Assembly: GCF_900111115.1 (NCBI RefSeq)
Contig: NZ_FOGD01000001.1
Location: 1-64,000, forward strand
Origin: Giesbergeria anulus
GTDB lineage: Bacteria; Pseudomonadota; Gammaproteobacteria; Burkholderiales; Burkholderiaceae_C
Direction: 5' to 3'
Length of the DNA stretch: 64,000 bases
The notes under the pieces were generated by a model. The model worked only from the letters and a program-made list of their open reading frames with translations, was not told where the DNA came from and did no database searches. Numbering within the stretch: position 1 is the first letter of the stretch; the number at the start of each line of letters is the position of its first letter. Shown here piece after piece: positions 5,824-21,372 of this stretch. Position numbers and translations under genes: made by a program.

Positions 5824-6044
5824 TAGGCATGGAGTGCCTGTTGCTGGTGCAACAGCAAAGTAACAAAAAACATGTTAGTTTGCATTGGATGGGTGTTAGT
5901 TACCTATAAGTAAATGTGTTTTTGTTCATAAAAAAATAGAATATAGAATAAAAATTCTTATAAAACAAATAGTTAGGCGAAAGAAGAAAATCGCATAAGC
6001 ATTGCTGTTTTCCTAGCAAACAACTCTTTGTTTCATCTCCAGAA

Positions 6045-6133: not shown

Positions 6134-6715
6134 ATGGGTCAGATTTACAAAGTGGTTGCCGTTTCGGGCAGTGTGCAAAGCCCCTCGCGCACCTCGGCAT
6201 TGGTTGAGCAATTGGTCAACACTTTGGGCGATGCCGTGCCCATTGAAGTGCAACACATTGACCTGGGCACTTTGGCCCCGCTGATCGGCAGCGCCCTGTC
6301 ACGCGCACAACTGCCCGCTGCCGCAGAGGCCAGCATCCAAGCGATTGAATCGGCCGATGTGCTGATCGTGGCCAGCCCGGTCTATCGCGGCTCTTATACC
6401 GGCCTGTTTAAGCACCTGTTTGACTTTGTCCACCACGAGGCACTGATCGATGTGCCTGTGCTGCTGGCCGCTACTGGCGGCAGCGAGCGCCACGCGCTGG
6501 TGATTGACCACCAGCTGCGTCCACTGTTTAGCTTTTTCCAAGCGCGCACGCTACCCATTGGCGTTTATGCCACTGAGCAGGATTTTAGCCACTACGAAGT
6601 GACCAGCGCTCCATTGCTGGCGCGTATCCGTTTGGCGATTGAGCGCGCTGTGCCCTTGCTGGATCGCGCTCCGGCGCTCGAAGTGCAAGCCGCCTCAATC
6701 CCTCTTGCCGCGTGA
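6134..6715 (+). CDS. msuE: NAD(P)H-dependent FMN reductase, SsuE/MsuE type
   Basis: Flavodoxin-fold reductase of 193 residues that would supply FMNH2 to the two-component monooxygenases downstream. Visible features are the N-terminal VVAVSGSVQSPSRTS phosphate-binding loop, the ASPVYRGSYTGLFKHLFD segment typical of SsuE/MsuE, and the ATGGSERHALVIDHQLRPL flavin-contact block. Length fits the family (about 190). It starts at ATG 6134 after GGAGAG and is the first gene of the sulfur cluster. MsuE and SsuE cannot be told apart by eye; the longer C-terminal tail and the neighbouring SfnB/SfnR-like genes favour the MsuE/SfnE side. Confidence 0.88.
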   Translation: MGQIYKVVAVSGSVQSPSRTSALVEQLVNTLGDAVPIEVQHIDLGTLAPLIGSALSRAQLPAAAEASIQAIESADVLIVASPVYRGSYTGLFKHLFDFVHHEALIDVPVLLAATGGSERHALVIDHQLRPLFSFFQARTLPIGVYATEQDFSHYEVTSAPLLARIRLAIERAVPLLDRAPALEVQAASIPLAA

Positions 6716-6781
6716 TTCGCACTCATCCCTCGCACGGGCGATCAAGTTCTTGACTCCTCATCTTCCCCACAGGCTTTTCCC

Positions 6782-8206
6782 ATGACTACTTCCAAGAAAC
6801 GCATCATCCTCAACGCTTTTGACATGACCTGCGTCGGTCATCAGGCGGCTGGCACTTGGAGGCATCCTTCGAGTCAGGCCTCGCGCTACAACGATCTGGA
6901 GTATTGGACCAATCTGGCGATTGAGCTTGAGCGTGGTGCATTCGATGCGTTGTTCATCGCCGACGTGGTGGGTGTCTATGACGTGTACCGAGGCTCCGCA
7001 GAAGGTGCCTTGCAGGATGCCGCACAGGTTCCGGTCAATGACCCCTTTGGTGCTATCTCTGCCATGGCCGCTGTGACCCGCAACGTTGGCTTTGGCGTGA
7101 CGGCTGCGGTCACGTTTGAGCATCCGTACTTGCTGGCCCGCCGGCTGTCCACGTTGGATCACCTGACCAAGGGCCGGGTGGCTTGGAACGTGGTGTCGTC
7201 CTATCTGGATTCGGCAGCACGCAACATCGGCTTGGACAAACAGCTTCCCCATGATGAGCGCTATGACTTGGCCGAGGAGTACATGGAGGTCATCTACAAG
7301 CTCTGGGAAGGCAGTTGGGAAGAGGGAGCGGTGTTGCGCGACAAGGAGCGTGGCATCTTTACCGATCCGACCAAGGTACATCCGATTCAGCATGAAGGAA
7401 AGTACTTCAAGGTTCCGGGCTTTCACTTGACCGAGCCGTCGCCTCAGCGCACGCCCGTGATTTTTCAGGCCGGGGCTTCTGCGGCTGGTCGGGCATTCGC
7501 TGCCCGCCATGCTGAGGCCATGTTCATCCTAGCCACCAGCCCAGAGTCGGCCAGAGTGCTGACCGACAAGATTCGGGCCGAGGTGGCAGCCGCCGGACGC
7601 GAGCCCGATGCTCTCAAGATTTTCACGCTACTCACGGTGATTACTGGGCCGACTGACGAGGCGGCGCAGCGCAAGCACGAAGAGTACCTCTCCTATGCCA
7701 GCCCTACCGGAATGATGGCGCTTTATGGCGGCTGGACAGGGCTGGACTTTGCCTCACTCGACCCCGATACGCCACTGAAGGCGGTGGAAAACGATAGCCT
7801 GCGCACGACCCTCGAATCCTTGGCTGCTGACGGTAAAGAATGGACGGTGCGTGAGGTGATCCGTCAGCGCTCTATTGGGGGCCTAGGCCCTGTGTTGGTG
7901 GGTGGCCCGGAAAAGGTCGCGGACGAGTTGGAGCGCTGGGTGGATGAAGGCGGTGTGGACGGCTTCAACCTAGCCTACGCAGTCACCCCTGCATCGACTA
8001 CCGACTTTATTGATTTTGTCGTGCCGGAATTGCGCAAGCGAGGTCGTGCACAGACCAGCTATGCACCGGGCACGCTGCGCGAGAAGCTGTTGGGGGACAA
8101 AGACGGCAAGACGCGCGATTCCCACCCAGCCACGCATTGGCGCAATCACTACATCGGCAAAGAGAGTGTGGCTGACGCCAGCGGGCCTGCTGCGTCTTGG
8201 GCTTGA
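6782..8206 (+). CDS. LLM-class flavin-dependent monooxygenase, NtaA/SnaA/DszA family
   Basis: A 474-residue bacterial-luciferase-like TIM-barrel enzyme that would use FMNH2 and O2. The order is typical of NtaA/SnaA/DszA proteins: KKRIILNAFDMTCVGHQ at the start, TWRHPSSQASRYNDLEYW, then ALFIADVVGVYDVY, RVAWNVVSSYLDSAARN and TPVIFQAGASAAGRAFAA. Length matches DszA-type enzymes (about 450-480) and exceeds SsuD or SfnG. In this context the likely job is oxidative C-S cleavage of a sulfone or related compound, with the reductase at 6134 as electron donor. The true substrate cannot be read from sequence; nitrilotriacetate-type oxidation is a family alternative that the neighbours do not favour. Confidence 0.88.
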   Translation: MTTSKKRIILNAFDMTCVGHQAAGTWRHPSSQASRYNDLEYWTNLAIELERGAFDALFIADVVGVYDVYRGSAEGALQDAAQVPVNDPFGAISAMAAVTRNVGFGVTAAVTFEHPYLLARRLSTLDHLTKGRVAWNVVSSYLDSAARNIGLDKQLPHDERYDLAEEYMEVIYKLWEGSWEEGAVLRDKERGIFTDPTKVHPIQHEGKYFKVPGFHLTEPSPQRTPVIFQAGASAAGRAFAARHAEAMFILATSPESARVLTDKIRAEVAAAGREPDALKIFTLLTVITGPTDEAAQRKHEEYLSYASPTGMMALYGGWTGLDFASLDPDTPLKAVENDSLRTTLESLAADGKEWTVREVIRQRSIGGLGPVLVGGPEKVADELERWVDEGGVDGFNLAYAVTPASTTDFIDFVVPELRKRGRAQTSYAPGTLREKLLGDKDGKTRDSHPATHWRNHYIGKESVADASGPAASWA

Positions 8207-8227
8207 GTCAGTAAACAGAGGCACACC

Positions 8228-9121
8228 ATGTCCAGCACTTCCCTTGAACTCACCATGCCGCCCACGGCCACGTCGGGGCAGTGGCAGGCTGCACCACCAG
8301 CGGCACCGGTGCTTTCCGCTGCGCGTGTGGTGGCTCCAACTACGCAGGCGGTGTTGAGCCTCGAAGGCATTGATTTGTCGTTTGGTGGCATCCATGCGCT
8401 CAGTGGTGTGGATTTGAACATCCAGCCCGGACAGATCTATTCCATCATCGGCCCCAATGGCGCGGGCAAAAGCTCGCTGGTCAATGTGATCAGTGGGTTG
8501 TACCAGCCGGATCGGGGCACGGTCTGGCTGAATGGGCAAGCGTTCCAAAAGGTGCCCACGGCCCAACTGGCCCGTTTGGGCGTGGCGCGTACCTTTCAGA
8601 ACCTGGCGCTGTTCCGGGGGCTGACGGTGCGTGACAACATTGCGCTGGGGCGGGTAGAACACACCCGCTCCACTTTTGTTGAGCAGCTGCTGGGGCGTGG
8701 GCGGGCGCAACGTGAGTTGCTTGATGCCCGTGCGCGGGCCGCTGAAGTGATTGAGTTTTTGGGGCTGCGTGATGCACAAGACCGCTTGGCCGGTACGCTG
8801 CCCTATGGTCTGCAAAAGCGGGTCGAATTGGGCCGGGCGCTGATTGCCCAACCCCGTCTGCTGCTGCTCGATGAGCCGCTGGCCGGTATGACGATGACCG
8901 AAAAATCCCACATGGTGCAACTGGTGCGCGCTGCCCGTGACCAGTGGGGAGCCACGATTGTGCTGATTGAGCACGACATTGGCATTGTGCTCGGCCTATC
9001 CGACCGGGTAGCGGTGCTGGACTATGGCCGCAAGATTGCCGATGGCACTCCGGCAGAGGTGCGTGATGACCCGGTGGTGATTGATGCCTACCTCGGTGTG
9101 GCCCATGAGGAGGCCGCGTAA
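8228..9121 (+). CDS. ABC transporter ATP-binding protein, LivG type
   Basis: ATPase of 297 residues with an extra N-terminal segment of about 40 residues rich in Pro/Ala/Thr before the nucleotide-binding domain. Walker A is GPNGAGKSS, the signature region is the LivG-like variant YGLQKRVELGRAL, and Walker B is LLLLDEPLAGM. The LivG hallmark ARTFQNLALFRGLTVRDN is present. The stop overlaps the ATG of the LivH-type permease by one base. It should form a heterodimer with the second ATPase encoded at 13781. The transported compound is probably an organosulfur molecule rather than an amino acid, inferred only from gene context. Confidence 0.9.
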   Translation: MSSTSLELTMPPTATSGQWQAAPPAAPVLSAARVVAPTTQAVLSLEGIDLSFGGIHALSGVDLNIQPGQIYSIIGPNGAGKSSLVNVISGLYQPDRGTVWLNGQAFQKVPTAQLARLGVARTFQNLALFRGLTVRDNIALGRVEHTRSTFVEQLLGRGRAQRELLDARARAAEVIEFLGLRDAQDRLAGTLPYGLQKRVELGRALIAQPRLLLLDEPLAGMTMTEKSHMVQLVRAARDQWGATIVLIEHDIGIVLGLSDRVAVLDYGRKIADGTPAEVRDDPVVIDAYLGVAHEEAA

Positions 9122-10017
9122 TGGGTGGCTTTGATTTCGCCTTCTTTGCCGAAGTGCTGGTGGGTGGGTTGCTTTCGGGCGTGATGTATTCGCTGGTGGC
9201 GATTGGCTTTGTGCTGATCTACAAAACCTCTGGGGTACTCAATTTTGCCCAAGGCGCGCAACTGCTGTTGGCGGCGTTGACCTTTGTGAGTTTGGTTGAG
9301 CGTGGCGTGCCTTTTGTGCTGGCGCTGGCCATCACCTTTGCGCTGATGGTGCTGCTGGGGCTGCTGATTGAACGGGTGGTACTACGCCCACTGGTCAACC
9401 AGCCACCCATCACCTTGTTCATGGCGACGTTGGGGTTGTCGTATGTGATTGAGGGCGTGGCCCAGTTGGTTTGGGGTACGCAAGTGCATGAATTGGACTT
9501 GGGCATCTCGGACGCTCCGCTGGAGTTGGGCGGGGTCTTGATTTCTAGTTTTGATTTGTTTGCTGCGGGCATTGCTGCCGTGATGGTGGCGCTGCTGTCA
9601 GCATTTTTCCGCTACACCCATATTGGCCTGAGCTTTCGGGCGGCTGCCGACGATACCTTTGCCGCCTTGTCGGTAGGTTTGCGGCTGCCGCGCATTTGGG
9701 CCACGGTGTGGGCTACCGCTGGGATCATCGCTTTGGTAGCAGGGTTGCTTTGGGGAGCGCGTTTGGGCGTGCAGTTTTCGCTGTCGATGGTGGTGCTGAA
9801 AGCGCTGCCGGTGCTGGTGTTGGGCGGTTTTGATTCCATTTTGGGCGCGATTGTGGGCGGTCTCATCATTGGCGCGCTGGAGAAATTGGCCGAGGTTTAT
9901 CTAGGCGATTTGGTCGGCGGTGGCATTGAGAGCTGGATTGCTTATGTGGCGGCATTGGGTTTCTTGCTGGTCAAGCCTGGTGGTTTGTTTGGGCAACGTT
10001 TGGTGGAAAGGGCCTGA
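9121..10017 (+). CDS. Branched-chain amino acid-type ABC permease, LivH type
   Basis: Inner-membrane permease of 298 residues with about eight hydrophobic segments. Family-typical stretches include LLSGVMYSLVAIGFVLIYKT near the N-terminus, GVLNFAQGAQL, PLVNQPPITLFMATLGLSY, and the cytoplasmic coupling region FRAAADDTFAALSVGL. It overlaps the upstream ATPase by one nucleotide and ends 3 nt before the LivM-type gene, so the three should be co-translated. The substrate is inferred to be a sulfur compound. Confidence 0.9.
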   Translation: MGGFDFAFFAEVLVGGLLSGVMYSLVAIGFVLIYKTSGVLNFAQGAQLLLAALTFVSLVERGVPFVLALAITFALMVLLGLLIERVVLRPLVNQPPITLFMATLGLSYVIEGVAQLVWGTQVHELDLGISDAPLELGGVLISSFDLFAAGIAAVMVALLSAFFRYTHIGLSFRAAADDTFAALSVGLRLPRIWATVWATAGIIALVAGLLWGARLGVQFSLSMVVLKALPVLVLGGFDSILGAIVGGLIIGALEKLAEVYLGDLVGGGIESWIAYVAALGFLLVKPGGLFGQRLVERA

Positions 10018-10020
10018 GCC

Positions 10021-11076
10021 ATGTCTGTTTCTACTAAACCATTCTGGTTGACCCCTGCCGTGGTGCTGTTGCTGGCTTATGGCCTCGTGCCGCTGATTGC
10101 TACTGATTACTGGTTGGATGCCATTTTGTTGCCCTTTTTGGCGCTGTCATTGGCTGGCGTCGGCTTGAACCTGCTCACTGGCTATGCGGGTCAGCTCTCA
10201 CTGGGGTCTGCGGCTTTTATGGCGGTGGGTGCTTTTGCCGCCTACAACTTTCATCTGCGTGTGGAGGGCTTGCCGCTGCTGGGTAGCATGGTGCTGGCTG
10301 GGCTGGCGGCCACCGCCATTGGCGTGGTGTTTGGTCTTCCCAGTTTGCGCTTGCGGGGTTTTTATCTGGCGGTATCGACGCTGGCGGCACAGTTCTTTGT
10401 GCAATGGGCGCTGACCAAGTTTGGCTGGTTTAGCAACTACAACCCTTCCGGCGTCATTGATGCCCCGGCCATCCGTGTGGCGGGCCACACCTTTGACACC
10501 CCCACAGGCCGCTACCTGTTCGCTTTGAGCGTGGTCACGGTGTTGACTCTGCTTATCTGGCGTTTGGTGCATACCCCCACCGGCCACCACTTTATTGCCA
10601 TCCGCGATAACGAACTGGCTGCCCGCGTCACTGGTGTGCCGGTGTTGCGTACCAAGCTGCTGGCCTTTGCGATTTCGTCCTTTGTGATTGGCGTGGCCGG
10701 GGTGCTGTGGGGCTTTGTTTATCTGCGCACGGTGGAGCCTGCGGGCTTCAACCTCGACCGTTCGTTCCAGATTCTGTTCATCATCATTATTGGCGGCCTA
10801 GCCACCATTCGTGGGGCTTTCTTGGGCGCGGCGCTGATCGTGGTGTTTCCGCTGCTGCTGTCACGTCTGGGCTCCTTTGTGTTGGGGGACTGGTTTGACT
10901 CAGGCGTGCTCGATTTGAGCCAACGCATTGTGCTGGGCGTTTTGATCGTTGCCTTTTTGATTGTGGAGCCGCAAGGGCTGGCCGCACTGTGGCCCCGGCT
11001 GTTGCAACGCCTGCGGCAGTACCGCCAGCTCCGTTCTTCTCCCGCAGCCCCGGCAGCTTCTGCCTCTGGTGCCTGA
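10021..11076 (+). CDS. Branched-chain amino acid-type ABC permease, LivM type
   Basis: Second permease subunit, 351 residues. It shows the LivM landmarks LNLLTGYAGQLSLGSAAFM, LPSLRLRGFYLAVSTLA, FIAIRDNELAARVTGVPV (coupling helix) and IIIIGGLATIRGAFLGA. A short Ala/Pro-rich cytoplasmic tail ends the protein. Start ATG 10021 is 3 nt after the LivH-type stop. It pairs with the permease at 9121 and ATPases at 8228 and 13781. Confidence 0.9.
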   Translation: MSVSTKPFWLTPAVVLLLAYGLVPLIATDYWLDAILLPFLALSLAGVGLNLLTGYAGQLSLGSAAFMAVGAFAAYNFHLRVEGLPLLGSMVLAGLAATAIGVVFGLPSLRLRGFYLAVSTLAAQFFVQWALTKFGWFSNYNPSGVIDAPAIRVAGHTFDTPTGRYLFALSVVTVLTLLIWRLVHTPTGHHFIAIRDNELAARVTGVPVLRTKLLAFAISSFVIGVAGVLWGFVYLRTVEPAGFNLDRSFQILFIIIIGGLATIRGAFLGAALIVVFPLLLSRLGSFVLGDWFDSGVLDLSQRIVLGVLIVAFLIVEPQGLAALWPRLLQRLRQYRQLRSSPAAPAASASGA

Positions 11077-11125
11077 TTCCTGTTTATCCACCACCTACCT
11101 ACACCCTCAGAGGAGTCTTTTCGCC

Positions 11126-12454
11126 ATGTCTTTGTCCCACAAATTTAAAACGCTGCTGCTGGCCGGTGCCATGGCCCTTACTGGGATGCAAGGCAGTGCC
11201 TACGCCCAACAGGCGCAGGAACAGTTCTTTCCGCTGCAAAGTTACCGTGTTGGCCCTTATGCCGCTGGTGGCACCGGCTTTTTTGGTGGTTTTATCGACT
11301 ATCTGAACCTCGTCAATACCCGCGACGGCGGCGTCGGTGGCGTCAAGCTGACGTGGGAAGAGGGCGAGACACAATATGAAGTCGAGCGCGGCGTCGAGGT
11401 GTACGAGCGCTTGAAAAACAAGCCCGGCATTGCCACTTGGAACCCGCTGTCGGTGGGTATTGCCTATGCACTGCTCGATCGCGTGACGGCTGACAAGGTG
11501 CCCTTGCTGACCATCAACCACGGGCGCACCGATACCACCGATGGCCGCGTGTTCAAGTACATCTTCCCGTTGTTGGTCAACCCCTACAGCGAGACCTCGG
11601 GCATCGTCAATTACATCGGCACCAAGGTCGGTGGCAATGACAAGCTCAAGGGCAAAAAGATCGTGGTGCTGTACCACGGTTCGCCCTATGGCAAAGAAAC
11701 CATTCCAATTTATGAGCTGCTGGCTAAGCAATACGGCTTTACCGTACAGCAAATCGAGGTACCCCACCCCGGTAACGAACAGCAATCGCAATGGCTGACC
11801 ATCCGCCGCGCCAAGCCCGATTTTGTCGTGCTGCGGGGCTGGGGCGTGATGAACCCGGTAGCGCTGAAAACCGCGCAAAAAACGGGTTTCCCGGCTGACC
11901 GCATCATCGGCAATATCTGGTCTAACTCCGAAGAAGACGTGATCCCAGCGGGTGATGCCGCTAAGGGTTATGTCGCTATCACCTCGGTAGCCCCCGGTAG
12001 CCAGTTCCCGGTGCTGCAAGACATCACCAAAACCCTGTATGACGCCAACAAGGGCAACTTGCAGGACAAAAAGCGCATTGGTAGCGTTTACCACAACCTC
12101 GGTGTGCTCAACGGCATCTTGAATGTGGAGGCTATCCGCATCGCCCAAGCCAAGTTTGGCAAGCGCACCCTGACCGGCGATGAAATCCGCTGGGGCCTAG
12201 AAAACCTGAAGATTGACGAAGCCCGTGCCGCCGCACTGGGTGCCAAGGGCTTGTTCCACTCCATCAACGTGACATGGGACAACCACGAAGGCGATGGCCG
12301 CGTGGCCTTCCAGCAATGGGATGGCAAGAAGTGGAACGTGGTCTCGGACTGGATTGCCCCCGATTGGAAGCTGCTGCGTCCCATCATTGAAAAGTCTTCG
12401 CAGGCCTACGCCAAAGACAAGGGCGTGAAGGTACGCACCAGCATCAACGACTGA
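11126..12454 (+). CDS. Periplasmic substrate-binding protein, LivK-like, of the sulfur cluster
   Basis: Receptor of 442 residues for the ABC importer encoded around it. A cleavable signal peptide ends near GSAYA-QQ (residues 1-26). The mature part has a type I periplasmic fold: YAAGGTGFFGGFIDYLNLVN, GGVKLTWEEGETQYEVERG, GIATWNPLSVG and KGKKIVVLYHGSPYGKET are laid out as in amide- and amino-acid-binding LivK relatives. It is longer than E. coli LivK (about 370). The ATG at 11126 is placed by the AGAGGAG site at 11109-11115 and the signal peptide. The gap to the permease is 49 nt. Ligand unknown; a thioether, sulfone or sulfonate is the contextual guess. Confidence 0.9.
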   Translation: MSLSHKFKTLLLAGAMALTGMQGSAYAQQAQEQFFPLQSYRVGPYAAGGTGFFGGFIDYLNLVNTRDGGVGGVKLTWEEGETQYEVERGVEVYERLKNKPGIATWNPLSVGIAYALLDRVTADKVPLLTINHGRTDTTDGRVFKYIFPLLVNPYSETSGIVNYIGTKVGGNDKLKGKKIVVLYHGSPYGKETIPIYELLAKQYGFTVQQIEVPHPGNEQQSQWLTIRRAKPDFVVLRGWGVMNPVALKTAQKTGFPADRIIGNIWSNSEEDVIPAGDAAKGYVAITSVAPGSQFPVLQDITKTLYDANKGNLQDKKRIGSVYHNLGVLNGILNVEAIRIAQAKFGKRTLTGDEIRWGLENLKIDEARAAALGAKGLFHSINVTWDNHEGDGRVAFQQWDGKKWNVVSDWIAPDWKLLRPIIEKSSQAYAKDKGVKVRTSIND

Positions 12455-12498
12455 TGGCCTTGTTCTCTCCTGTAACCCTGATTTGATACGGACACACC

Positions 12499-13773
12499 AT
12501 GAGCGCAGTTACTTCGGATATTTCGATTCTCGGCCCGCAATACGAAACTATTGCCGCCAAATACCGCCCCATCTTCCAACGGATTGCCGATACGGCCTTA
12601 GAGCGTGAACGCGAACGCAAACTAGGCCGCGATGCTATCCAGTGGCTCAAAGAAGCCCGCTTTGGCGCGGTGCGCGTGCCGGTGGAGTATGGCGGCGATG
12701 GCGCTACCCTGCCCCAGTTGTTCCAACTGCTGATTGAATTGGCCGAGGCCGATTCCAACGTTGCGCAGGCGGTGCGCGGGCATTTTGCCTTTGTCGAAGA
12801 CCGGCTCAACGCCCCACGTGATGAGCAAACCATTGTTTGGCTGCGCCGCTTTGCGGCAGGCGATTTGGTCGGCAATGCTTGGACAGAAGTGAATGTCGCT
12901 ATTGGTGACGTGATTACCCGTGTCTCGCAAAAAGACGGGGGCTGGGTGGTCAATGGGCAGAAGTTTTACAGCACCGGCAGTATTTTTGCCGACTGGATTG
13001 ACCTGTTTGCCCGCCGCGATAGCGATGGTGTGGATGTGATTGCCGCCGTGAGCACCCATCAGCCCGGTATCACCCACCAAGACGACTGGGACGGCTTTGG
13101 CCAGCGCACCACCGGCAGTGGCACATCAACCTACCAAGATGCAGTGGTGGAGGAAGTGAATATCTTCCCGTTTGCTGGCCGCTTTAAGTACCAAACAGCG
13201 TTTTACCAATTGTTCCATCTGGTGGCGCTGGCCGGTATTGCCCGTGCCGTCACCCGTGATGTAGCGCAGCAAGTGCGTGAGCGCAAACGCATTTTTAGCA
13301 CCGGCAACGCCCCTGCCGTGGCGCAGGATGTGCAGATTCAGCAGGTAGTGGGCGAGATTTCTGCCCTGACCTATGCTGCTGAAGCCACCGCCATCCGCGC
13401 CAGCTTTGCTGCCCAGCGCGCCTACGATGCCCATTGGAGCGGCGATGCTGACCGCGAAAAACAGGCCAATATCGAGGCTGAACTGGAATCGGCGCAAGGC
13501 CAAGTGGTGGTCTCTGATCTGGTGCTGCGCGCCAGCTCGCAACTATTCAATGCGCTGGGGGCCTCGGCGGCCAGTTCTAGCAAGGCGCTGGATCGCCACT
13601 GGCGCAATGCGCGCACCGTGGCCTCGCACAATCCGTTGGTCTATAAGGCGCGGATTATTGGCGATTGGCACATCAATGGCACTGAGCCGCCCTACGTTTG
13701 GCAGATTGGTGCCGGTTCTGGGCAAGCTGCGCCGTCGGATAGCACCACGGCTGAAGCTGGGCAAGCCGCCTAA
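12499..13773 (+). CDS. Acyl-CoA-dehydrogenase-fold flavoprotein, SfnB/DszC-like (copy 1)
   Basis: A 424-residue member of the acyl-CoA dehydrogenase superfamily, on the branch used for sulfur acquisition rather than beta-oxidation. Visible blocks are FGAVRVPVEYGGDGATLP, GNAWTEVNVAIGD, GGWVVNGQKFYSTGSIFADW, and the C-terminal FNALGASAASSSKALDRHWRNARTVASHNPLVYK, where DRHWRNxRTxxxHxPxxYK is shared with DszC/SfnB. A basic catalytic Glu as in true dehydrogenases is not evident. These proteins usually act as FMNH2-dependent S-oxygenases. The gene lies between the binding protein and the second ATPase of the importer, tying uptake to oxidation. SfnB in Pseudomonas is linked to dimethylsulfone use; the role here is inferred. 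Confidence 0.85.
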   Translation: MSAVTSDISILGPQYETIAAKYRPIFQRIADTALERERERKLGRDAIQWLKEARFGAVRVPVEYGGDGATLPQLFQLLIELAEADSNVAQAVRGHFAFVEDRLNAPRDEQTIVWLRRFAAGDLVGNAWTEVNVAIGDVITRVSQKDGGWVVNGQKFYSTGSIFADWIDLFARRDSDGVDVIAAVSTHQPGITHQDDWDGFGQRTTGSGTSTYQDAVVEEVNIFPFAGRFKYQTAFYQLFHLVALAGIARAVTRDVAQQVRERKRIFSTGNAPAVAQDVQIQQVVGEISALTYAAEATAIRASFAAQRAYDAHWSGDADREKQANIEAELESAQGQVVVSDLVLRASSQLFNALGASAASSSKALDRHWRNARTVASHNPLVYKARIIGDWHINGTEPPYVWQIGAGSGQAAPSDSTTAEAGQAA

Positions 13774-13780
13774 GGAGCGC

Positions 13781-14566
13781 ATGATGGACGCTGCCAACGC
13801 CCTGCTGCACATCCAGTCGATTGAGGTCTGCTACCAGAATGCGGTGGTGGCCCTGCACGATGTCAACCTTACGGTTCGGCCCGGAGAAATCCACGCCGTG
13901 CTGGGGGCCAATGGCGCTGGCAAGTCCACTACGCTCAAGGCGGTGTCCAATCTGCTGCCCGCCGAGCGCGGGCAAGTGACGGGTGGGCGCATCACCTTTG
14001 ATGGCCACGATGTCACCCGCACTAACCCCGCCACCTTGGTGCGCCACGGGCTGGTGCAGGTGCTGGAAGGGCGGCACTGCTTTCCTAACCTGACGGTGGA
14101 AGAAAACCTCATCACCGGGGCTTTGGGGCGCGATGCTTCACGCGCCGAGATCGCCACCGATCTGGAAAAGGTCTATGCGATTTTTCCGCGTCTGCAAGCG
14201 CGCCGCCACAGCCGGGCCGGTTTGACTTCGGGCGGCGAACAGCAAATGGCCGCCATTGGCCGCGCCTTGATGTCGCGCCCGCGTTTGCTGGTGCTGGATG
14301 AACCCTCGATGGGCCTTGCGCCGCTGGTGGTGCAGGACATTTTTAGCCAGCTCCAGCGCCTGAATCGGGAGGATGGACTGTCCATTGTGGTGGCAGAGCA
14401 GAACTCTACCGTGGCCCTGCAATACGCCGACACCGCCACCGTGCTGGAAGCGGGGGTGACGGTGCTTTCGGGTACGGCGCAAGAGCTGCGCCAGCGCGAA
14501 GACATCCAGCATTTTTATTTTGGTCAGGGGCTGGCAGAAGACGCCCACGCCCCGGTGGCCGCCTGA
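13781..14566 (+). CDS. ABC transporter ATP-binding protein, LivF type
   Basis: Second ATPase of the importer, 261 residues. Walker A is GANGAGKSTT, the LivF-typical GLVQVLEGRHCFPNLTVEEN follows, the signature is SGGEQQMAAIGRAL, and Walker B is LLVLDEPSMGLAP. Start ATG 13781 has AAGGAG at 13772-13777, which overlaps the stop of the previous gene; a second ATG at 13784 is possible. It is separated from the LivGHMK genes by one flavoprotein gene, an unusual insertion for a liv-type operon. Confidence 0.9.
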   Translation: MMDAANALLHIQSIEVCYQNAVVALHDVNLTVRPGEIHAVLGANGAGKSTTLKAVSNLLPAERGQVTGGRITFDGHDVTRTNPATLVRHGLVQVLEGRHCFPNLTVEENLITGALGRDASRAEIATDLEKVYAIFPRLQARRHSRAGLTSGGEQQMAAIGRALMSRPRLLVLDEPSMGLAPLVVQDIFSQLQRLNREDGLSIVVAEQNSTVALQYADTATVLEAGVTVLSGTAQELRQREDIQHFYFGQGLAEDAHAPVAA

Positions 14567-14628
14567 GCACAACACACCGCCCATCACCTCTTGTTGATAC
14601 CACGACCCCATTGACGAAAGATTTCACC

Positions 14629-15864
14629 ATGACGACGACTGCAACGCATATTTCCCGCTGGGCCGAGCAAGCCACCCCCACCACAGTCGAAGGGTGGTTG
14701 GCACGGGCCGCTGAAGTGGCCGCCATTTTGGCCCAAGACCAAGTGGCCCGAGACCGTGCCCAAGCTGTGCCTTATGCCGAGGTGCAATTGCTCAAAGATT
14801 CGGGCCTGACGACCTTGCTAGGCCCAGTGCAGCATGGCGGCGGTGGTCAGCGCTGGGAAACGGCCTACCAAATTATTCGCAAGGTATCGAGTGGCGATGG
14901 CTCTATCGGCCAGTTGCTGGCCTACCATTATTTGTGGGCTTGGGCGGTGCGGTTGGTGGGCACCCCAGCGCAAATTGAGGCCATAGAGGCACTGTACACC
15001 TCACAAAATCTGTTCTTTGGCGGGGCGGTGAACCCACGCGATGGCGATGTAACCATCACCGAAGAAGTGGACGGAAAACTGCACTACAACGGGCGCAAGA
15101 GCTTTTGCACTGGCTCCAAAATTTCTGACCTCACGGTGCTGGAAGGCATTTTGGCGGGCACAGACAAGCATATCTTTGCCATCGTGCCCTCCAAGCAGCC
15201 TGGCATCATTTACCACGACGACTGGAACCACCTAGGCCACCGCCTGAGTGAGTCGGGCAGTGTGACGATTGAAGACGTGGTGATTGATTGGAGTGGCGCA
15301 GCAGGCTACGTGGACAAGGTGTACCAAGATCGCCCCTATGCCACTCTGAATTTGCCTGCGATTCAGCAGATTTTTACCGAAATCTACCTCGGCACCGCCC
15401 AAGGTGCGCTGGAAACCGCAGCCACTTACACCAAGAGCAAAACCCGCGCTTGGCCCTATGGCGGCGACAACAAGCAAAGTGCCACCGAAGAGTGGTACAT
15501 CCTAGAAGCCTATGGCACCCTGCAATCGCGCTTGTGGGCGGCGCAAGCCTTGGCCGATGCCACGGGCGCAGAAATCGCCCAACTGCTGCACGCCGAGCGC
15601 GACAGCGTGACTCCACAACAGCGGGGAGAGGTAGCGGTGCGTATTGCCGCCGCCAAGCAGGTGGCGGTGGATGTGGGGCTGGAAATTGGCACCCGCGTGT
15701 TTGAGGTCACGGGTGCCCGCGCCACTTCTAACGACGTCGGGCTGGATATTTACTGGCGCAATCTGCGCACCCACTCGCTGCACGACCCGATTGCCTACAA
15801 GCGCCGGGAGGTCGGAGCCTATGCCTTGCTGGGTGAAATCCCCGAAGCCACTTGGTACACCTGA
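14629..15864 (+). CDS. Acyl-CoA-dehydrogenase-fold flavoprotein, DszC/SfnB-like (copy 2)
   Basis: A 411-residue paralogue of the genes at 12499 and 15919. Shared family blocks are LLKDSGLTTLLGPVQHGGGG, SIGQLLAYHYLWAW (typical of DszC-like monooxygenases), GRKSFCTGSKISDLTVLEG, YHDDWNHLGHRLSESGSVT, and the C-terminal DIYWRNLRTHSLHDPIAYKR. The GRKSFCTG motif and short linker to the FMN site fit FMNH2-dependent S-monooxygenation more than dehydrogenation. A TTG at 14611 is also in frame; ATG 14629 is chosen as the canonical codon. Likely function is oxidation of a thioether or sulfoxide before C-S cleavage by the DszA-like enzyme. Confidence 0.85.
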   Translation: MTTTATHISRWAEQATPTTVEGWLARAAEVAAILAQDQVARDRAQAVPYAEVQLLKDSGLTTLLGPVQHGGGGQRWETAYQIIRKVSSGDGSIGQLLAYHYLWAWAVRLVGTPAQIEAIEALYTSQNLFFGGAVNPRDGDVTITEEVDGKLHYNGRKSFCTGSKISDLTVLEGILAGTDKHIFAIVPSKQPGIIYHDDWNHLGHRLSESGSVTIEDVVIDWSGAAGYVDKVYQDRPYATLNLPAIQQIFTEIYLGTAQGALETAATYTKSKTRAWPYGGDNKQSATEEWYILEAYGTLQSRLWAAQALADATGAEIAQLLHAERDSVTPQQRGEVAVRIAAAKQVAVDVGLEIGTRVFEVTGARATSNDVGLDIYWRNLRTHSLHDPIAYKRREVGAYALLGEIPEATWYT

Positions 15865-15918
15865 TCCGGGGTTTGTAGACCACCACGGCCCCTTATACCA
15901 ACCAACGCCTCTAGCACC

Positions 15919-17094
15919 ATGCCGGAAATCCCTCTCTTGCCTTACCAACAGATCACCGCCGCTTTGGCGCGTGAGTTTGCCGAAACCGCCGTGGAGCGCG
16001 ACATTAGCGGCGGCACTCCCAAGGCCGAGCGCGATGCGCTGCGCCGCAGCGGGTTGCTGTCTTTGTCTATCCCGCAACAATATGGCGGCCAAGGGCTGAA
16101 CTGGAGCCAAATTCTGGACACGGTGCGCACCTTTGCCAAAGTCGATAGCTCCATCGCCCATGTCTATGGCTTTCACCACCTGCTGTTGGCTACGGTGCGC
16201 CTGTTTTCGCGCCCAGACCAGTGGGAGCCTTGGTTAGAGCAGACGGCGCGCAAAAACTGGTTTTGGGGCAACGCCCTCAACCCGCTTGATACCCGCACCG
16301 TGGTGCGGAAACTCGACGGCTGGTATGAGTTTTCGGGCAAAAAAAGTTTTTGCTCTGGCTCGGCAGATTCTGAAATGCTGGTGGCCTCTGGTGTGGATGA
16401 GAGCAGTGGCAAATTATTGATTGCGGCGGTGCCTACCTCACGGGCTGGTATCACCCTCAACTACGATTGGAACAACATGGGCCAGCGCCAGACCGACAGC
16501 GGCAGCGCCCTGTTTGAAAAGGTGCGGGTGGAGGCCACTGAGCTGCTGCTCGACCCCGGCCCGCTGTCCACGCCGTTCTCGTCGCTGCGGCCCTTGCTGG
16601 CGCAGCTTATTTTTGTCCATCTGTTTCTGGGCTTGGGTGAAGGTGCTTTGGAGCAATCGCGCCACTACACCCTGAACGAGTCTCGCCCTTGGTTCCGTTC
16701 TGGGGCCGAACAGGCCAACCAAGACCCCTACACGCTGCTGCACTATGGTGAGTTTTTTGTCGGTTTGGAGAGCGTGCGCCTGCTGGCGCGCAACGCTGCC
16801 GAGCTGTTTGATGCTGCTTGGAGCCGGGGCGAAGCACTGGATGCGCAGCAGCGCGGCCAAGTAGCCGTGGCGATTGCAGCAGCCAAGGTGGCTTCCACCC
16901 GGGTCGGCTTGGATGTATCGAGCCGCTTTTTTGAGACCACCGGTGCCCGTGCCACCCATGGCGCATTGCGGCTGGATCGCTTCTGGCGCAATTTGCGCAC
17001 CCAAACCCTGCACGATCCAGTCGATTACAAGCTCAAAGAGCTGGGTGACTGGGCGCTCAATGGTGAGATTCCTTCGCCCTCGTTCTACTCTTGA
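15919..17094 (+). CDS. Acyl-CoA-dehydrogenase-fold flavoprotein, DszC/SfnB-like (copy 3)
   Basis: A 391-residue third paralogue, closest in layout to copy 2: LSIPQQYGGQGLNWSQIL, SSIAHVYGFHHLL, FWGNALNPLDTRTV, FSGKKSFCSGSADSEM, YDWNNMGQRQTDSGSA and the tail RFWRNLRTQTLHDPVDYKLK. It ends with a TGA at 17092-17094 that overlaps a TTG in the frame of the sigma-54 activator. Together with copies 1 and 2 it makes three related oxygenase-like proteins in one operon, suggesting sequential oxidation steps or different substrates. Confidence 0.85.
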   Translation: MPEIPLLPYQQITAALAREFAETAVERDISGGTPKAERDALRRSGLLSLSIPQQYGGQGLNWSQILDTVRTFAKVDSSIAHVYGFHHLLLATVRLFSRPDQWEPWLEQTARKNWFWGNALNPLDTRTVVRKLDGWYEFSGKKSFCSGSADSEMLVASGVDESSGKLLIAAVPTSRAGITLNYDWNNMGQRQTDSGSALFEKVRVEATELLLDPGPLSTPFSSLRPLLAQLIFVHLFLGLGEGALEQSRHYTLNESRPWFRSGAEQANQDPYTLLHYGEFFVGLESVRLLARNAAELFDAAWSRGEALDAQQRGQVAVAIAAAKVASTRVGLDVSSRFFETTGARATHGALRLDRFWRNLRTQTLHDPVDYKLKELGDWALNGEIPSPSFYS

Positions 17095-17105
17095 GCGATA
17101 CCTTG

Positions 17106-18302
17106 ATGGCCGCCACCCTTCCGATCTGGCCGCCACCGCCCGGCCAAGGCAGCAGCGCGTTGGACTGGATTTTTGAAGACCCGCGCTCCAAAACCCTGTT
17201 GGCCGAAGTCGAGCAGGTGGCCCCTAGCCATGCCAACATCCTCATTACGGGTGAGACTGGCACCGGCAAGGAGCTGATTGCCCGCCATTTGCATTACCGC
17301 AGTGCCCGGCGCAATGGCCCGTTTGTGGTGGTCAGTTGCGGGGCTTTTTCTGAATCGCTGGTGGATGCAGAACTGTTTGGGCACGAAAACGGCGCTTTTG
17401 CTGGTGCCTTTGGTACCCAGATCGGCTGGTTTGAGGCTGCACATGGCGGCACCATTTTTCTCGATGAAATCAATGATCTGCCGCTGACGGTGCAGAACAA
17501 ACTGCTGCGCGTGCTGCAAGAGCACGAAATTGTGCGCTTGGGTGGGCGCAAGCCCATTCCCATCGACGTGCGTATTGTGGCCGCTGCCACCGCCGATTTG
17601 GATGAGATGGTGCAGCAAAAGCGTTTTCGCAAAGACCTGTACTACCGGCTCAATGTGGTCAGGCTGCATGTGCTGACCCTGCGCGAGCGCCCCGGCGACA
17701 TTGTGCCGCTGGCGCGTTACTTTATGGAGTTGTACAGCCGCAAGCTGGGCTATGCCCGGCTGCGCTTGACGCCCCAAGCCGAGCAGTTGCTGATGCAGGC
17801 CCCGTGGCCGGGCAATGTGCGCGAGCTAGAAAACACCATCCATCGCAGCTTGTTGCTGTGTGATGGCGAGGTGCTTGATGCCAGTAGCCTGCGCCTGTTA
17901 CACCCTGCCAGCGCTACCGCCGCAGCACCTGCCCCATCAGCAGCGCATTTGCTGGCCCCAGAGCCAGAGACCACTACACCAGCGCAGCCGCCCAAGCCGC
18001 AAACATCCCTTGTTCAAGGTGACAGTGCGGCCCACGCGGCACTGCGCCACGCCATTCGCCAATTGTGCGATGCCAACGCGGCCCATCTCTACCAGAGCGT
18101 AGAAGACACCTTGCTGCGCGAAGTCTTCCGCTATTGCCACTACAGCCAGAGCGAAACCGCCCGCCTGCTGGGCGTGAGCCGCAACATTGTGCGCGCCCGC
18201 CTGATTCGGCTGGGCGAAGTGAGCGGTTCGCGCAAGCACCCTGCGGACGCAGACGACACCGATCTCCCCTATCCCACCACCTCCAACAAGGAAACACCAT
18301 GA
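17106..18302 (+). CDS. Sigma-54-dependent transcriptional activator, SfnR-like, without sensor domain
   Basis: An AAA+ enhancer-binding protein of 398 residues that would activate RpoN-dependent promoters of sulfur-scavenging genes. The AAA+ domain begins within about 40 residues of the start: Walker [21 protein letters not shown] in the place of the sigma-54-contacting GAFTGA loop (Thr to Ala), Walker [11 protein letters not shown], and the second-region [12 protein letters not shown] Pro/Ala-rich linker leads to a C-terminal Fis-type helix-turn-helix ([20 protein letters not shown]). There is no N-terminal receiver, GAF or PAS domain. Start choices are ATG 17106 or TTG 17091, the latter overlapping the previous stop. 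The stop overlaps the SsuD-like start (ATGA at 18299-18302). Confidence 0.88.
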
Positions 18303-19426
18303 GCCTCGATATTTTCTGGTTTCTCCCCACCTCTGGCGATACCCGCTATTTGGGCAAGTCTGATTTTGGCCGTGCGCCCAGCAATGCCTACCTGCGCCAA
18401 ATTGCCGTCACGGCAGAACATTTGGGCTACGATGGTTTGCTGATTCCCACTGGCAGCTCCTGCCTTGACCCGTGGGTGACGGCGGCCAGCTTGGTGCCAG
18501 TGACGCAGCGTATCAAGCTGCTGGTGGCGCTGCGTACCTCCTTGGGCAACCCGACGGCATCGGCACGGCAGGCAGCCACGCTAGACCAAGCCCTTAATGG
18601 CCGCTTGCTGCTCAATGTGGTGCCCGGCGGCGATGCGGTAGAACTGGCGGGCGATGGCATTTTTTACGATCACGATGCCCGCTACGCTGCGGGCGATGAG
18701 TTTTTGACCATCTGGCGCAAACTGCTCCAAGGCGAACGGGTGGATTTTGAGGGCGAGCACCTGCACGTAGAAGGGGCGCAAAACTTCTTCCCGCCGGTGA
18801 GCAAACCCTATCCACCGCTGTATTTTGGTGGCTCCTCACCCGCCGCGCACGAGTTGGCCGCCAAACACGTTGATGCTTACCTGTCTTGGGGTGAACCACC
18901 CGAGGCCGTGGCGCAGAAGATTGCCGATGTGCGCGAGCGTGCCGCCAAGTATGGCCGCACTGTGCGTTTTGGCATCCGCATCCATGTGATTGTGCGCGAA
19001 ACCAGTGCCGAGGCGTGGGCCGCTGCCGACCGCCTCATCAGCCACTTGAGTGACGAAGAGATTGAACGCGCACAACAAAACTATGCACGCATGGACTCCG
19101 AAGGCCAGCGCCGCATGGCCGCGCTGCACGGTGGCCGCCGCGACCAATTGGTGGTCGGCCCCAATTTGTGGGCGGGGGTGGGGCTGGTGCGTGGTGGAGC
19201 TGGCACCGCGTTGGTGGGCAACCCCGAAGAAGTGGCGGCCCGCTTGCAAGAGTACATCGACTTGGGCGTGGACAGCTTTGTGCTCTCCGGCTACCCGCAC
19301 CTTGAAGAATCCATCCGGTTTGCTGAGTTGGTGTTTCCGCTGCTGCCGGGCAAAAAGCCGGTGAACCTGCGTGACCAAACCTTGACTGGCGGTGCTTTTG
19401 ACGCCCGTGCCACCGAATCGCGCTAA
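18299..19426 (+). CDS. ssuD: FMNH2-dependent alkanesulfonate monooxygenase, SsuD-like
   Basis: A 375-residue luciferase-like enzyme that would cleave alkanesulfonates to aldehyde and sulfite. Typical SsuD blocks are [15 protein letters not shown] near the N-terminus, [75 protein letters not shown] and [20 protein letters not shown]. Length is close to E. coli SsuD (381). ATG 18299 overlaps the stop of the sigma-54 activator by four bases. The reductase partner is probably the MsuE-like protein at 6134. The close relative MsuD (methanesulfonate) cannot be excluded. Confidence 0.9.
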
Positions 19427-19454
19427 ATATCCAGCGCTGCCAACAATCTTACCT

Positions 19455-20348
19455 ATGACTACTACTTTGCAAGCCCCCCGCACTGCCAGCGGCCACCGTG
19501 TGATTGACATGCGTTGCCGCCCGGCCTATCTGCATGATTTTTTTGGCGCTACGCCTGATTCTCCGGGCGAAGGCGTTGCCCGCTGGCTGAACCGGCGCGT
19601 CGGTGCCCGTGGTGATGATTTGCACTTTGCCCGCTCGCGTACCCCGGAAGGGTTTTTGGCCGAAGTGCGCGACGCGGGCTTGTCCCACGCCGTGGTGGTG
19701 GGCCGCCACACCCCCGGCCAGCACTTGCCCAACGATACCATCCACCAGATTGTGCAAGGGCACCCCGAACTGATTGGTATTGGTGCTGTGGATCCGGCCT
19801 TGCAGGGCACCGAGGCCGCACTGGCCGAGGTAGAACGTGCTGTGCGTACCTTGGGGCTGGCTGGCATTGACCTAGAGCCGGGCTTTGGTGTCCCAGCGCG
19901 CCATCCAGATGATCCGGTGTATTTTCCAATCTACGATTTGGCCCAAGACTTGGGCATTCCGATCTTTTTGATGAGTGGCCCAACCACCCCTGATCTGCGC
20001 TACAACGACCCAGCGCCCTTGGCACAGGTGGCGCAGGCTTTTCCGCGCTTGCGCTTGGTGGCTTACCACGGCTATTGGCCCAATGTGCAGCAAGCGATTG
20101 GCGTGGCGTTTCGCTATGAGAATATCTCTTTGGTGCCCGATATGTACTTGTTCCAACCCGGAACACAGGCTTATGTGGAGGCCGCCAACAGCTTTTTGGG
20201 TGAGCAGTTCTTGTTTGGCTCGTCGTACCCGTTTCGGCCTATTGGGCAAACGATAGAAGACTTTTTGGCTCTGGGCTTTCGCGACGACGTGGTCGAGCAA
20301 CTGCTCTATGGCAATGCCGCGCGTTTGCTGGCGCTGCCAGCAGCGTAG
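19455..20348 (+). CDS. Amidohydrolase-2-family protein lacking usual metal ligands
   Basis: A 297-residue TIM-barrel protein of the amidohydrolase_2 type, recognised from LIGIGAVDPAL, GLAGIDLEPGFG, FPIYDLAQDLGIPIFLMSG, LRLVAYHGYWP, LVPDMYLFQPG and the C-terminal FLFGSSYPF then LYGNAARLL. The usual N-terminal HxH metal motif reads VIDMRCRPAY (His to Arg at both places, as seen), and the late GxDYPF aspartate position reads GSSYPF. The late-barrel His in YHGYW is kept. It may therefore not be a metal hydrolase of the classic type. It follows ssuD by 28 nt as the last plus-strand gene of the sulfur cluster. Function unknown. Confidence 0.75.
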   Translation: MTTTLQAPRTASGHRVIDMRCRPAYLHDFFGATPDSPGEGVARWLNRRVGARGDDLHFARSRTPEGFLAEVRDAGLSHAVVVGRHTPGQHLPNDTIHQIVQGHPELIGIGAVDPALQGTEAALAEVERAVRTLGLAGIDLEPGFGVPARHPDDPVYFPIYDLAQDLGIPIFLMSGPTTPDLRYNDPAPLAQVAQAFPRLRLVAYHGYWPNVQQAIGVAFRYENISLVPDMYLFQPGTQAYVEAANSFLGEQFLFGSSYPFRPIGQTIEDFLALGFRDDVVEQLLYGNAARLLALPAA

Positions 20349-20367: not shown

Positions 20368-21183
20368 TTACAGTGCGCTGTAGCCTTTCCAGAACATATA
20401 AGCGGCCAGCACCAGCAACAGGCTGGCAAATACGCGCCGTAGCTGGCGCACGGGCAAGCTGTGCGCGGCACGGGCACCCAGTGGGGCCGTGAGCACGCTG
20501 CAAGTGGCAATCACTGCCAAGGCAGGCAACCAGAGATAACCCAGCGAATAGGCGGGCAGGCCCAACACTGACGAGCCACCCAGTACATAGCCGGCGACGT
20601 TAAACACCGCAATCGGAAAGCCCAAGGCAGCGCTGGTAGCCACCGCATTGTGGATAGGCACATTGCACCACGTCATAAAGGGCACGCTGATAAAACCACC
20701 ACCGGCCCCGACCAATCCGGCCAAAAAACCAATGCCACTGCCTGCGGCCAACTGCCCCGCAGTGCCCGGCATTTGTCGCGTCGGAGCTGGTTTGCGGTCG
20801 CGGAACATTTGCAGGGCCGAAAAGCCCACAAAGACGCCAAAAAACAGGGCCAAATAAGAGCCTTTGAGCAAGGCAAACACGCCCAAACTGGCAGCAATGC
20901 CGCCCAAGGCAATACCGGGGGCTAGGCGCTGCACCAAGTCCCAGCGCACCGCGCCACGGCGGTGGTGGGCGCGCACACTGGAGATGGAGGTGAACAAAAT
21001 AGTGCCCATCGCCGTGGCAATAGCCATTTTGACGGCCAGATCAGGCGAGACGCCCCGCTGGGTTAGAAAATAGGTGAGAAAAGGCACCAGCATCATGCCA
21101 CCACCAATGCCCAGCAGGCCAGCAAAAAAACCAGCACACAAGCCCAGCAGGGCCAGTTCAATGATGAGCAGGAGGTCGAGCAT
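20368..21183 (-). CDS. TauE/SafE-family membrane transporter (putative sulfite exporter)
   Basis: A 271-residue protein with about eight membrane segments and two related halves, as in TauE/SafE (DUF81): CAGFFAGLLGIGGGMMLVP in the first half and GFLAGLVGAGGGFISVP in the second. It is convergent with the sulfur cluster, its 3' end lying 19 nt from the amidohydrolase stop. Export of excess sulfite or a C2 sulfonate is the family role; here it would relieve sulfite released by SsuD and the DszA-like enzyme. ATG 21183 is used because the hydrophobic N-terminus starts there; an in-frame ATG at 21222 lies inside the 6S RNA gene. Confidence 0.85.
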   Translation of the reverse strand: MLDLLLIIELALLGLCAGFFAGLLGIGGGMMLVPFLTYFLTQRGVSPDLAVKMAIATAMGTILFTSISSVRAHHRRGAVRWDLVQRLAPGIALGGIAASLGVFALLKGSYLALFFGVFVGFSALQMFRDRKPAPTRQMPGTAGQLAAGSGIGFLAGLVGAGGGFISVPFMTWCNVPIHNAVATSAALGFPIAVFNVAGYVLGGSSVLGLPAYSLGYLWLPALAVIATCSVLTAPLGARAAHSLPVRQLRRVFASLLLVLAAYMFWKGYSAL

Positions 21184-21189
21184 AAGAGA

Positions 21190-21372
21190 AGAAGGTGTCT
21201 GCCAGTGCCACCGAACCGGCATCCTGAACCGGGGGTTCAGGGGGGCGAGGGCAGCCAGGCGTTGGGTTCATCTGACGCGAGATGATCACGCTCACCGGGC
21301 AATGTACCAAGCCCAGGCTCAATGAGCATTGGTTCAAGGAAATATAAAGCCCAGCAGCACGGCAGACGGTGC
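21190..21372 (-). ncRNA. ssrS: 6S RNA
   Basis: It lies directly downstream of zapA on the same strand, the standard location in proteobacteria. Ends that could form the closing stem are visible on the minus strand: GTCTGCC (21367-21361) pairs perfectly with GGCAGAC (21203-21197), with GTGC and GCAC continuing inward. The interior has a C/T-rich bulge, a CTTGAACC segment, and a 3'-side hairpin CTGAACC/GGTTCAG (21240-21224). A -10 box TACAAT (21379-21374) sits just before the predicted 5' end. Length about 180 nt matches 6S RNA. It would bind the sigma-70 holoenzyme and adjust transcription in stationary phase. No covariance search was run, and the ends are approximate. Confidence 0.82.

Follow-up and report, generated by a model that had tools for sequence, protein, structure and literature searches.

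A Liv-type importer linked to organosulfur monooxygenase genes in Giesbergeria anulus, a candidate for the uptake of dimethyl sulfone or a similar compound

A run of 13 genes combines a Liv-type importer with organosulfur oxygenases

The subject of this analysis is a run of 13 contiguous genes, all on the plus strand, at positions 6134 to 20348 of a 64,000-nucleotide stretch of the Giesbergeria anulus genome (contig NZ_FOGD01000001.1, positions 1 to 64,000), which we refer to as the window. In this operon, genes for flavin-dependent oxygenases lie among those for an ATP-binding cassette (ABC) importer of the branched-chain amino acid (Liv) type; the largest gap is 66 bp, and some of the genes overlap. 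We assigned families with NCBIfam, Pfam, and the PDB sequence set and refined four of the starts from the sequence (livF, 13781; ACAD2, 14629; the SsuD-type gene, 18299; and the amidohydrolase gene, 19455), ACAD denoting the acyl-CoA dehydrogenase fold. The genes, with the convergent gene beyond the operon, are as follows.

6134..6715, plus strand: MsuE-type NADH:flavin mononucleotide (FMN) reductase (TIGR03566, 257.5 bits; cut-off, 212.5)
6782..8206, plus strand: DmoA-like FMNH2-dependent monooxygenase (PDB 6ak1, 831 bits; TIGR03860 over cut-off)
8228..9121, plus strand: livG-type ATPase (best NCBIfam model LivG, 249 bits, below the cut-off of 362)
9121..10017, plus strand: livH-type permease (UrtB/LivH models, below cut-offs)
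10021..11076, plus strand: livM-type permease (LivM/UrtC models, below cut-offs)
11126..12454, plus strand: LivK-type periplasmic binding protein of the SfnG-linked clade, placed by the tree and switch positions (PF13458; nearest solved structure 4ru0; model with a predicted local distance difference test score [pLDDT] of 90.2)
12499..13773, plus strand: ACAD1, SfnB-like ACAD-fold flavin monooxygenase (TIGR04022, 253 bits, below the cut-off of 431)
13781..14566, plus strand: livF-type ATPase (best NCBIfam model LivF, 216 bits, below the cut-off of 441; AAGGAG 5' of the start)
14629..15864, plus strand: ACAD2, monooxygenase of the DszC/SfnB/MsuC kind (below cut-offs; PDB 6u76, 244 bits; 8cda, 243; DszC entries, 228 to 232)
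15919..17094, plus strand: MsuC-like methanesulfinate monooxygenase (PDB 6u76, 624 bits, versus 331 to 341 for DszC entries)
17091..18302, plus strand: sigma54-dependent activator, SfnR-like by context (PF00158, PF25601; AAA+ domain from about residue 28)
18299..19426, plus strand: SsuD/MsuD-type alkanesulfonate monooxygenase (TIGR03565, 588.5 bits; cut-off, 518.2; PDB 7jv3, 539 bits; 1nqk, 508; 1m41, 505)
19455..20348, plus strand: Amidohydro_2 protein (PF04909)
20368..21222, minus strand: TauE/SafE-type sulfite exporter (PF01925), convergent with the operon

The original prediction, made from the sequence, had described 12 or 13 colinear genes here, and much of it was borne out: the reductase passed the MsuE cut-off, the SsuD-like enzyme passed that for alkanesulfonate monooxygenases, and the LivGHMKF-type genes were found with one flavoprotein gene between livK and livF. 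Three DszC/SfnB-like flavoproteins had been proposed; there are three ACAD-fold genes, but the third is MsuC-like. The sigma54 activator gene is likewise present, but its name, SfnR, is taken from its context; no receiver domain was found in its product, and among the matches listed (25 of 30) no NCBIfam model exceeded its cut-off. The PDB entry 7jv3 is MsuD, and 1m41 and 1nqk are SsuD entries. The amidohydrolase gene adjoins the SsuD-type gene in all six relatives that show both (L010, L013, L025, L030, L163, and L165; L numbers denote loci and G numbers genomes).

The first of the two luciferase-like monooxygenases had been called DszA-like, an identity that is ruled out by its scores: 270 bits to DszA against 831 bits to 6ak1, the crystallized dimethyl sulfide (DMS) monooxygenase. 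The protein is identical at 361 of 471 aligned residues (77%) to DmoA as encoded in Hyphomicrobium sulfonivorans S1 (L132), and 19 of the 20 binding residues listed in an excerpt of PMC9259527 are kept. The two loci differ in that no liv genes lie within the 19 kb examined around the H. sulfonivorans dmoA gene, whose neighbors we read as riboflavin synthesis and flavin reductase genes. In the same region (L132:4782-10615), dmoA is separated by a few genes from a second gene of the SfnG type that exceeds the cut-off.

With two ATPases, two permeases, and a type I receptor, the importer has the component set of the HAAT importers (LivFGHMK and UrtABCDE), and it shares its receptor fold with them and with the amide receptor AmiC. 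The operon has an SsuD-type enzyme and an FMN reductase in common with the ssu alkanesulfonate system; the scan of 14 genes showed no SsuABC-type importer, and no search for one was made elsewhere in the genome.

Relatives of the importer lie beside SfnG

A search with the binding protein gave 445 relatives, and the locus counts refer to the 80 best of these (78 to 99% identity). Most of these loci come from Burkholderiales and Rhizobiales, and one comes from H. sulfonivorans; one Verrucomicrobiota metagenome-assembled genome (MAG) was among the carriers of the cluster core. The neighborhood comparison that had been proposed as a check tied the binding protein to sulfur oxygenases. With SfnG scored as at least 60% identity to the SfnG of L039, and with several loci cut by contig ends, 71 of the 80 loci carried SfnG, four carried DmoA (L006, L010, L025, and L030), and five carried neither. 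Three of these five (L011, L067, and L076) are cut by contig ends, and the other two, L034 and L040 (A. vitis), come from genomes that encode SfnG at another place. Liv genes adjoined the binding protein in all 80 loci, accompanied by livF in 79, the reductase in 69, a DszC/SfnB-type gene in 75, and SfnG or DmoA in 75, while neither of two acyl-CoA ligase probes found a match in any of the 80. Because the linkage recurs across 80 loci, the association of these genes is not due to chance.

All three SfnG genes that we scanned (L007, L012, and L039) exceeded the cut-off for SfnG, the dimethyl sulfone (DMSO2) monooxygenase, and the ACAD downstream of livF in L039 passed the SfnB cut-off, which gives a rhizobial operon order of msuE-sfnG-livGHMKF-sfnB. 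The position of the ACAD gene varies among relatives (between livK and livF, after livF, or elsewhere), so that the presence of an oxygenase gene between the binding protein and the second ATPase, from which the original prediction had argued, is not telling.

Two genome samples that had been drawn independently of the binding protein gave a similar picture. Among 399 genomes of the order, 16 had SfnG over the cut-off, and 12 of these 16 held a LivK with at least 66% identity; outside this genome, all 14 such LivK proteins (12 genomes) lay within 4.4 kb of SfnG. The four SfnG genomes lacking a LivK at that identity are G006, G105, G285, and G393, and a short contig of G393 (L169) carries SfnG followed by livG, livH, and livM and then ends. 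In the phylum sample (398 genomes, some of them shared with the order sample), all eight other genomes with a LivK of at least 64% identity had SfnG, compared with 20 of the 398 overall (Fisher p 8e-11, with identity thresholds set after the hits had been seen and with no correction for kinship), and SfnG lay within 5 kb of LivK in six of the eight.

In one genome of the same family, SfnG reads in two frames (G377:C1:1149284-1150335, in L135), which reflects either a sequencing error or a pseudogene.

A complete switch of receptor residues accompanies the change of partner genes

More distant LivK proteins (43 to 61% identity) keep different company: 19 of the 20 picked loci adjoin a FadD-like and/or a PaaK-like acyl-CoA ligase, and one (L148) adjoins neither. 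The LivK paralogue of this genome (on contig C7, 45% identity) was considered as another sulfur importer and ruled out, since it adjoins acyl-CoA ligases. In a LivK tree of 72 rows (33 of the 80 loci, L135 to L166, and L117; midpoint root, quick search), all 48 rows of the SfnG/DmoA type fell in one branch of 51 rows (SH-like approximate likelihood ratio test [SH-aLRT], 99), and the 21 rows of the ligase group fell outside it. The other three rows of that branch are long-branched paralogues from L010 and L023, the L010 paralogue adjoining an NtaA-family oxygenase. Several members of the SfnG clade (L157 to L159, L161 to L166, L169, and L175) have a weak FadD-like match between livG and SfnG or the upstream side. 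In L159, L162, and L166, where it lies between SfnG and livG, this gene encodes 382 to 392 amino acids with an AMP-binding match, compared with 655 amino acids for the ligase of the paralogous cluster. The gene resembles a ligase that has been shortened, which suggests that the importer clade may descend from ligase-linked importers.

When we compared the 48 SfnG/DmoA-linked rows with the 21 ligase-linked rows, leaving aside the three L010 and L023 paralogues, which carry neither signature, seven positions had switched completely: 110 (Val versus Thr), 131 (Asn versus Gly), 132 (His versus Tyr or Phe), 153 (Pro versus Tyr), 264 (Ile or Val versus Trp), 267 (Asn versus Gly or Ala), and 325 (Leu or Met versus Arg). 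Position 263 switches nearly completely. In a remote profile alignment to Escherichia coli LivJ, positions 110, 131, 132, and 264 correspond to S79, A100, A101, and E226. The ligand contacts of LivJ, of which we used eight positions, include S79, T102, and E226, and the letters at these positions agree with the LivJ sequence. These three residues are Val, Gly, and Ile in the LivK of the window (remote alignment), so the amino acid contacts are not kept. Of the 22 columns that passed a 95%/10% rule (46 versus 21 rows), 3 fell on the 8 contact columns (hypergeometric p 0.006).

In the AlphaFold model, the seven switch positions sit in strand-end loops or at or near helix starts, which is where this receptor fold binds its ligands, and they would thus face the cleft. 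The better LivJ alignment does not reach position 325; in the weaker one, LivJ F276 falls on 321, where the model places a helix (321 to 344), and the location of position 325 in the cleft is thus putative. A receptor that has lost an invariant Arg and a Thr and has acquired Asn and His would suit an uncharged polar ligand. Receptors for urea, acetamide, aromatic acids, and fatty acids are among the Foldseek neighbors of this LivK. Unlike the receptors of LivFGHMK and UrtABCDE and unlike AmiC, the window receptor belongs to a clade of its own with another cleft signature and linkage to sulfur oxygenases.

Two loci (L158 and L160) carry a second, diverged receptor 60 to 78 bp from a second SfnG; it shares the cleft signature apart from W154 and M325.

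A DmoA-lineage enzyme occupies the SfnG slot

The DmoA gene of L006, L010, L025, and L030 follows the reductase gene, where most relatives have SfnG, although L006 is cut at this point. None of the five genomes with a DmoA operon, this one included, had an SfnG over the cut-off, compared with all eight of the other genomes examined alongside them. Of the other four DmoA genomes, three are MAGs and one is from an isolate, Curvibacter gracilis. The window sequence falls beside Comamonas and Acidovorax rows in the LivK tree (support, 98) and that of Curvibacter beside Ralstonia (94), and a single clade of the four tested DmoA rows was rejected (approximately unbiased [AU] test, p 0.018; quick tree, with L006 outside it).

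Among the proteins compared between operons, DmoA shows the highest conservation (95 to 96% identity). Recent transfer of dmoA as the cause was ruled out, since its divergence at fourfold sites (0.53 to 0.55) was within the range for neighboring genes (0.47 to 0.64; three comparisons). High identity at saturated fourfold sites means that DmoA is under strong constraint and is not a new arrival. Our reading of the exchange is that a DmoA-lineage enzyme has probably taken over the step of SfnG. As MsuC and an SsuD-type enzyme lie downstream, we favor methanesulfinate as the product of the DmoA slot, the step being cleavage of DMS or DMSO2.

A possible route of uptake and oxidation

In A. baylyi, as described in an excerpt of PMC13352529, ACAD-fold enzymes oxidize DMS to dimethyl sulfoxide (DMSO) and then to DMSO2, after which an SfnG homologue, MsuC, and SsuD act, with MsuE as the reductase. 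The window holds a candidate for every step of this route except SfnG, which we did not find at an E value of ≤1e-50 in this genome (99.6% complete), and the enzyme set would fit a one-carbon route toward sulfite. To judge from excerpts of PMC8234197 and PMC13352529, the sfn/msu DMSO2 pathway of Pseudomonas and the DMS pathway of A. baylyi ADP1 have MsuE, MsuC, SsuD/MsuD, DszC-fold S-oxidizing enzymes, and an SfnR-type activator in common with the window, which differs from both in the added Liv-type importer and in the DmoA-lineage enzyme that stands in place of SfnG.

From this gene content, we consider it somewhat probable that the genes form a sulfur-scavenging operon with a high-affinity importer for DMSO2 or a similar small uncharged methylated sulfur compound and with an exchangeable C-S-cleaving oxygenase. 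DMSO2 would be the most likely ligand and DMSO the next. The LivK-type receptor would capture the compound in the periplasm, and LivHMGF would carry it into the cell, where MsuE would supply FMNH2 and ACAD1 and ACAD2, of the DszC/SfnB fold, would oxidize DMS and DMSO as far as the sulfone. Removal of the first methyl group would fall to the occupant of the C-S-cleaving slot, which is SfnG in most relatives and the DmoA-lineage protein here. MsuC would make methanesulfonate, and the SsuD/MsuD-type enzyme would release sulfite for cysteine, any excess being exported by TauE. That the operon serves organosulfur import and oxidation, as originally predicted, agrees with the gene content, and an uncharged substrate in place of a branched-chain amino acid is supported by the linkage and the receptor residues; the prediction had named a bulkier or uncharged compound, but the partner genes speak for a small one, a one-carbon sulfur compound of the dimethyl sulfone family.

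Several observations weigh against this scheme. DmoA is reported to be active on DMS, which is volatile and should enter without an importer, and SfnG itself is absent from this genome at the threshold given above. In two of the eight importer genomes of the phylum sample (G451 and G743), SfnG is not beside the importer, and 12 of the 20 SfnG genomes of that sample lack this importer clade, which implies that the importer is accessory to DMSO2 use and not required for it. The AMP-binding gene that separates SfnG from livG in several relatives may point to a carboxylate, either as an ancestral ligand or as the substrate of the importer. The alignment to LivJ is remote: it has 97% probability, with all eight contact positions mapped, when four LivJ-like rows are used, but with two E. 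coli rows alone the probability is 19% and S79 lands on position 102. Last, no good sigma54 site lies upstream of the window operon, the best match having three mismatches.

It is conceivable, if unlikely, that the importer carries another small organosulfur compound, such as a methylsulfonyl carboxylate, methionine sulfone, or a compound like dimethylsulfoniopropionate, to be broken down by the luciferase-like and ACAD-fold enzymes. The shortened ligase-like gene in several relatives, the ligase linkage of the more distant LivK proteins, and the proximity of some importer relatives to NtaA-family oxygenases (L034 and L010) would suit such a substrate; set against them are the replacement of the invariant Arg of the ligase-linked rows by Leu or Met in all 48 rows and of Thr110 by Val, the lack of ligase matches in the 80 closer loci, and the three scanned SfnG proteins, which pass a model for DMSO2 monooxygenase. 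That the Liv genes encode an ordinary importer of branched-chain amino acids or aromatic acids lying among sulfur genes by chance seems very improbable to us. It would accord with the family annotation, with the naming of 4ru0 as a putative branched-chain amino acid receptor, and with the ligase-linked paralogue in this genome, but it is largely contradicted by the linkage across the 80 loci and the two genome samples, by the complete residue switch in the receptor, and by the failure of every Liv subunit to reach the LivFGHM cut-offs.

A further reading, which is compatible with the proposed importer and to which we give a little less than an even chance, is that the DmoA-like enzyme keeps the activity on DMS reported for DmoA; the operon would then process DMS directly, and DMSO or DMSO2 taken up by the importer would feed a second branch. 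The 77% identity and shared binding residues favor it, as does the strong constraint on DmoA among the operons. The exchange at the slot and the lack of an SfnG over the cut-off in the five genomes suggest instead that the two enzymes serve the same step. The products of DmoA from DMS are methanethiol and formaldehyde, and the pathway through MsuC and the SsuD-type enzyme requires methanesulfinate in place of methanethiol; no methanethiol oxidase of the SBP56 family was found in this genome, although 13 of 14 control genomes also lack one. As to the chemistry of DmoA, an excerpt of PMC8234197 gives C-S cleavage of DMS, and a figure legend of PMC13352529 gives conversion of DMS to DMSO.

DMSO2 arises from the environmental oxidation of DMS, and the intracellular route from the sulfone to sulfite is known. 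Titles and abstracts of the open-licence literature that we searched held no mention of a Liv-type importer tied to SfnG or DMSO2, and DMSO2 transporters had yet to be characterized according to a 2021 figure legend (PMC8234197). The system had been put forward as undescribed: other genomes have the cluster too, and its core is common in Burkholderiales and Rhizobiales records, but the assignment of the importer and the exchange of SfnG and DmoA appear to be new within the literature searched, the pathway enzymes being known. We suggest, tentatively and at rather less than even confidence, that this is the first identified DMSO2 importer, a Liv-type clade that arose from acyl-CoA-ligase-linked acid importers by losing acid-binding residues and whose partner slot takes SfnG or, on at least two occasions, a DmoA-lineage enzyme that would act here as a sulfone monooxygenase. 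The clade, which is common in rhizobial and Burkholderiales records and is usually annotated as amino acid transport, is thus offered as a candidate for the missing transporter; specific cleft residues are named for mutation, and the DmoA/SfnG exchange provides a clean test of whether DmoA-lineage enzymes act on sulfones.

Regulation and a second organosulfur cluster

Upstream of the reductase gene, 12 of 68 regions had a sigma54 -24/-12 site with one mismatch, compared with 0.3 expected from shuffled pairs; 8 of the 12 are from Variovorax, so these regions are not independent. Sigma54 control by an SfnR-like activator is likely for part of the family. Over the window as a whole, sigma54-like sites were not enriched (84 found, 76.6 expected), a sigma70 scan gave 3 sites (4.9 expected), and terminator-like sites numbered 26 (17.5 expected; standard deviation, 4.2). 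An AT-rich stretch with a short inverted repeat lies upstream of the operon at 5945 to 5961 and is absent from the eight other upstream regions checked.

The same genome has a second organosulfur cluster on contig C7 (147.3 to 153.4 kb; L116:7327-13374), with an SfnB-like ACAD gene (326 bits, below the cut-off), another ACAD gene, an oxygenase of the NtaA/DmoA family (51% identity to that of the window), and a MetN-type ABC ATPase. The importer of this cluster is probably of a different type.

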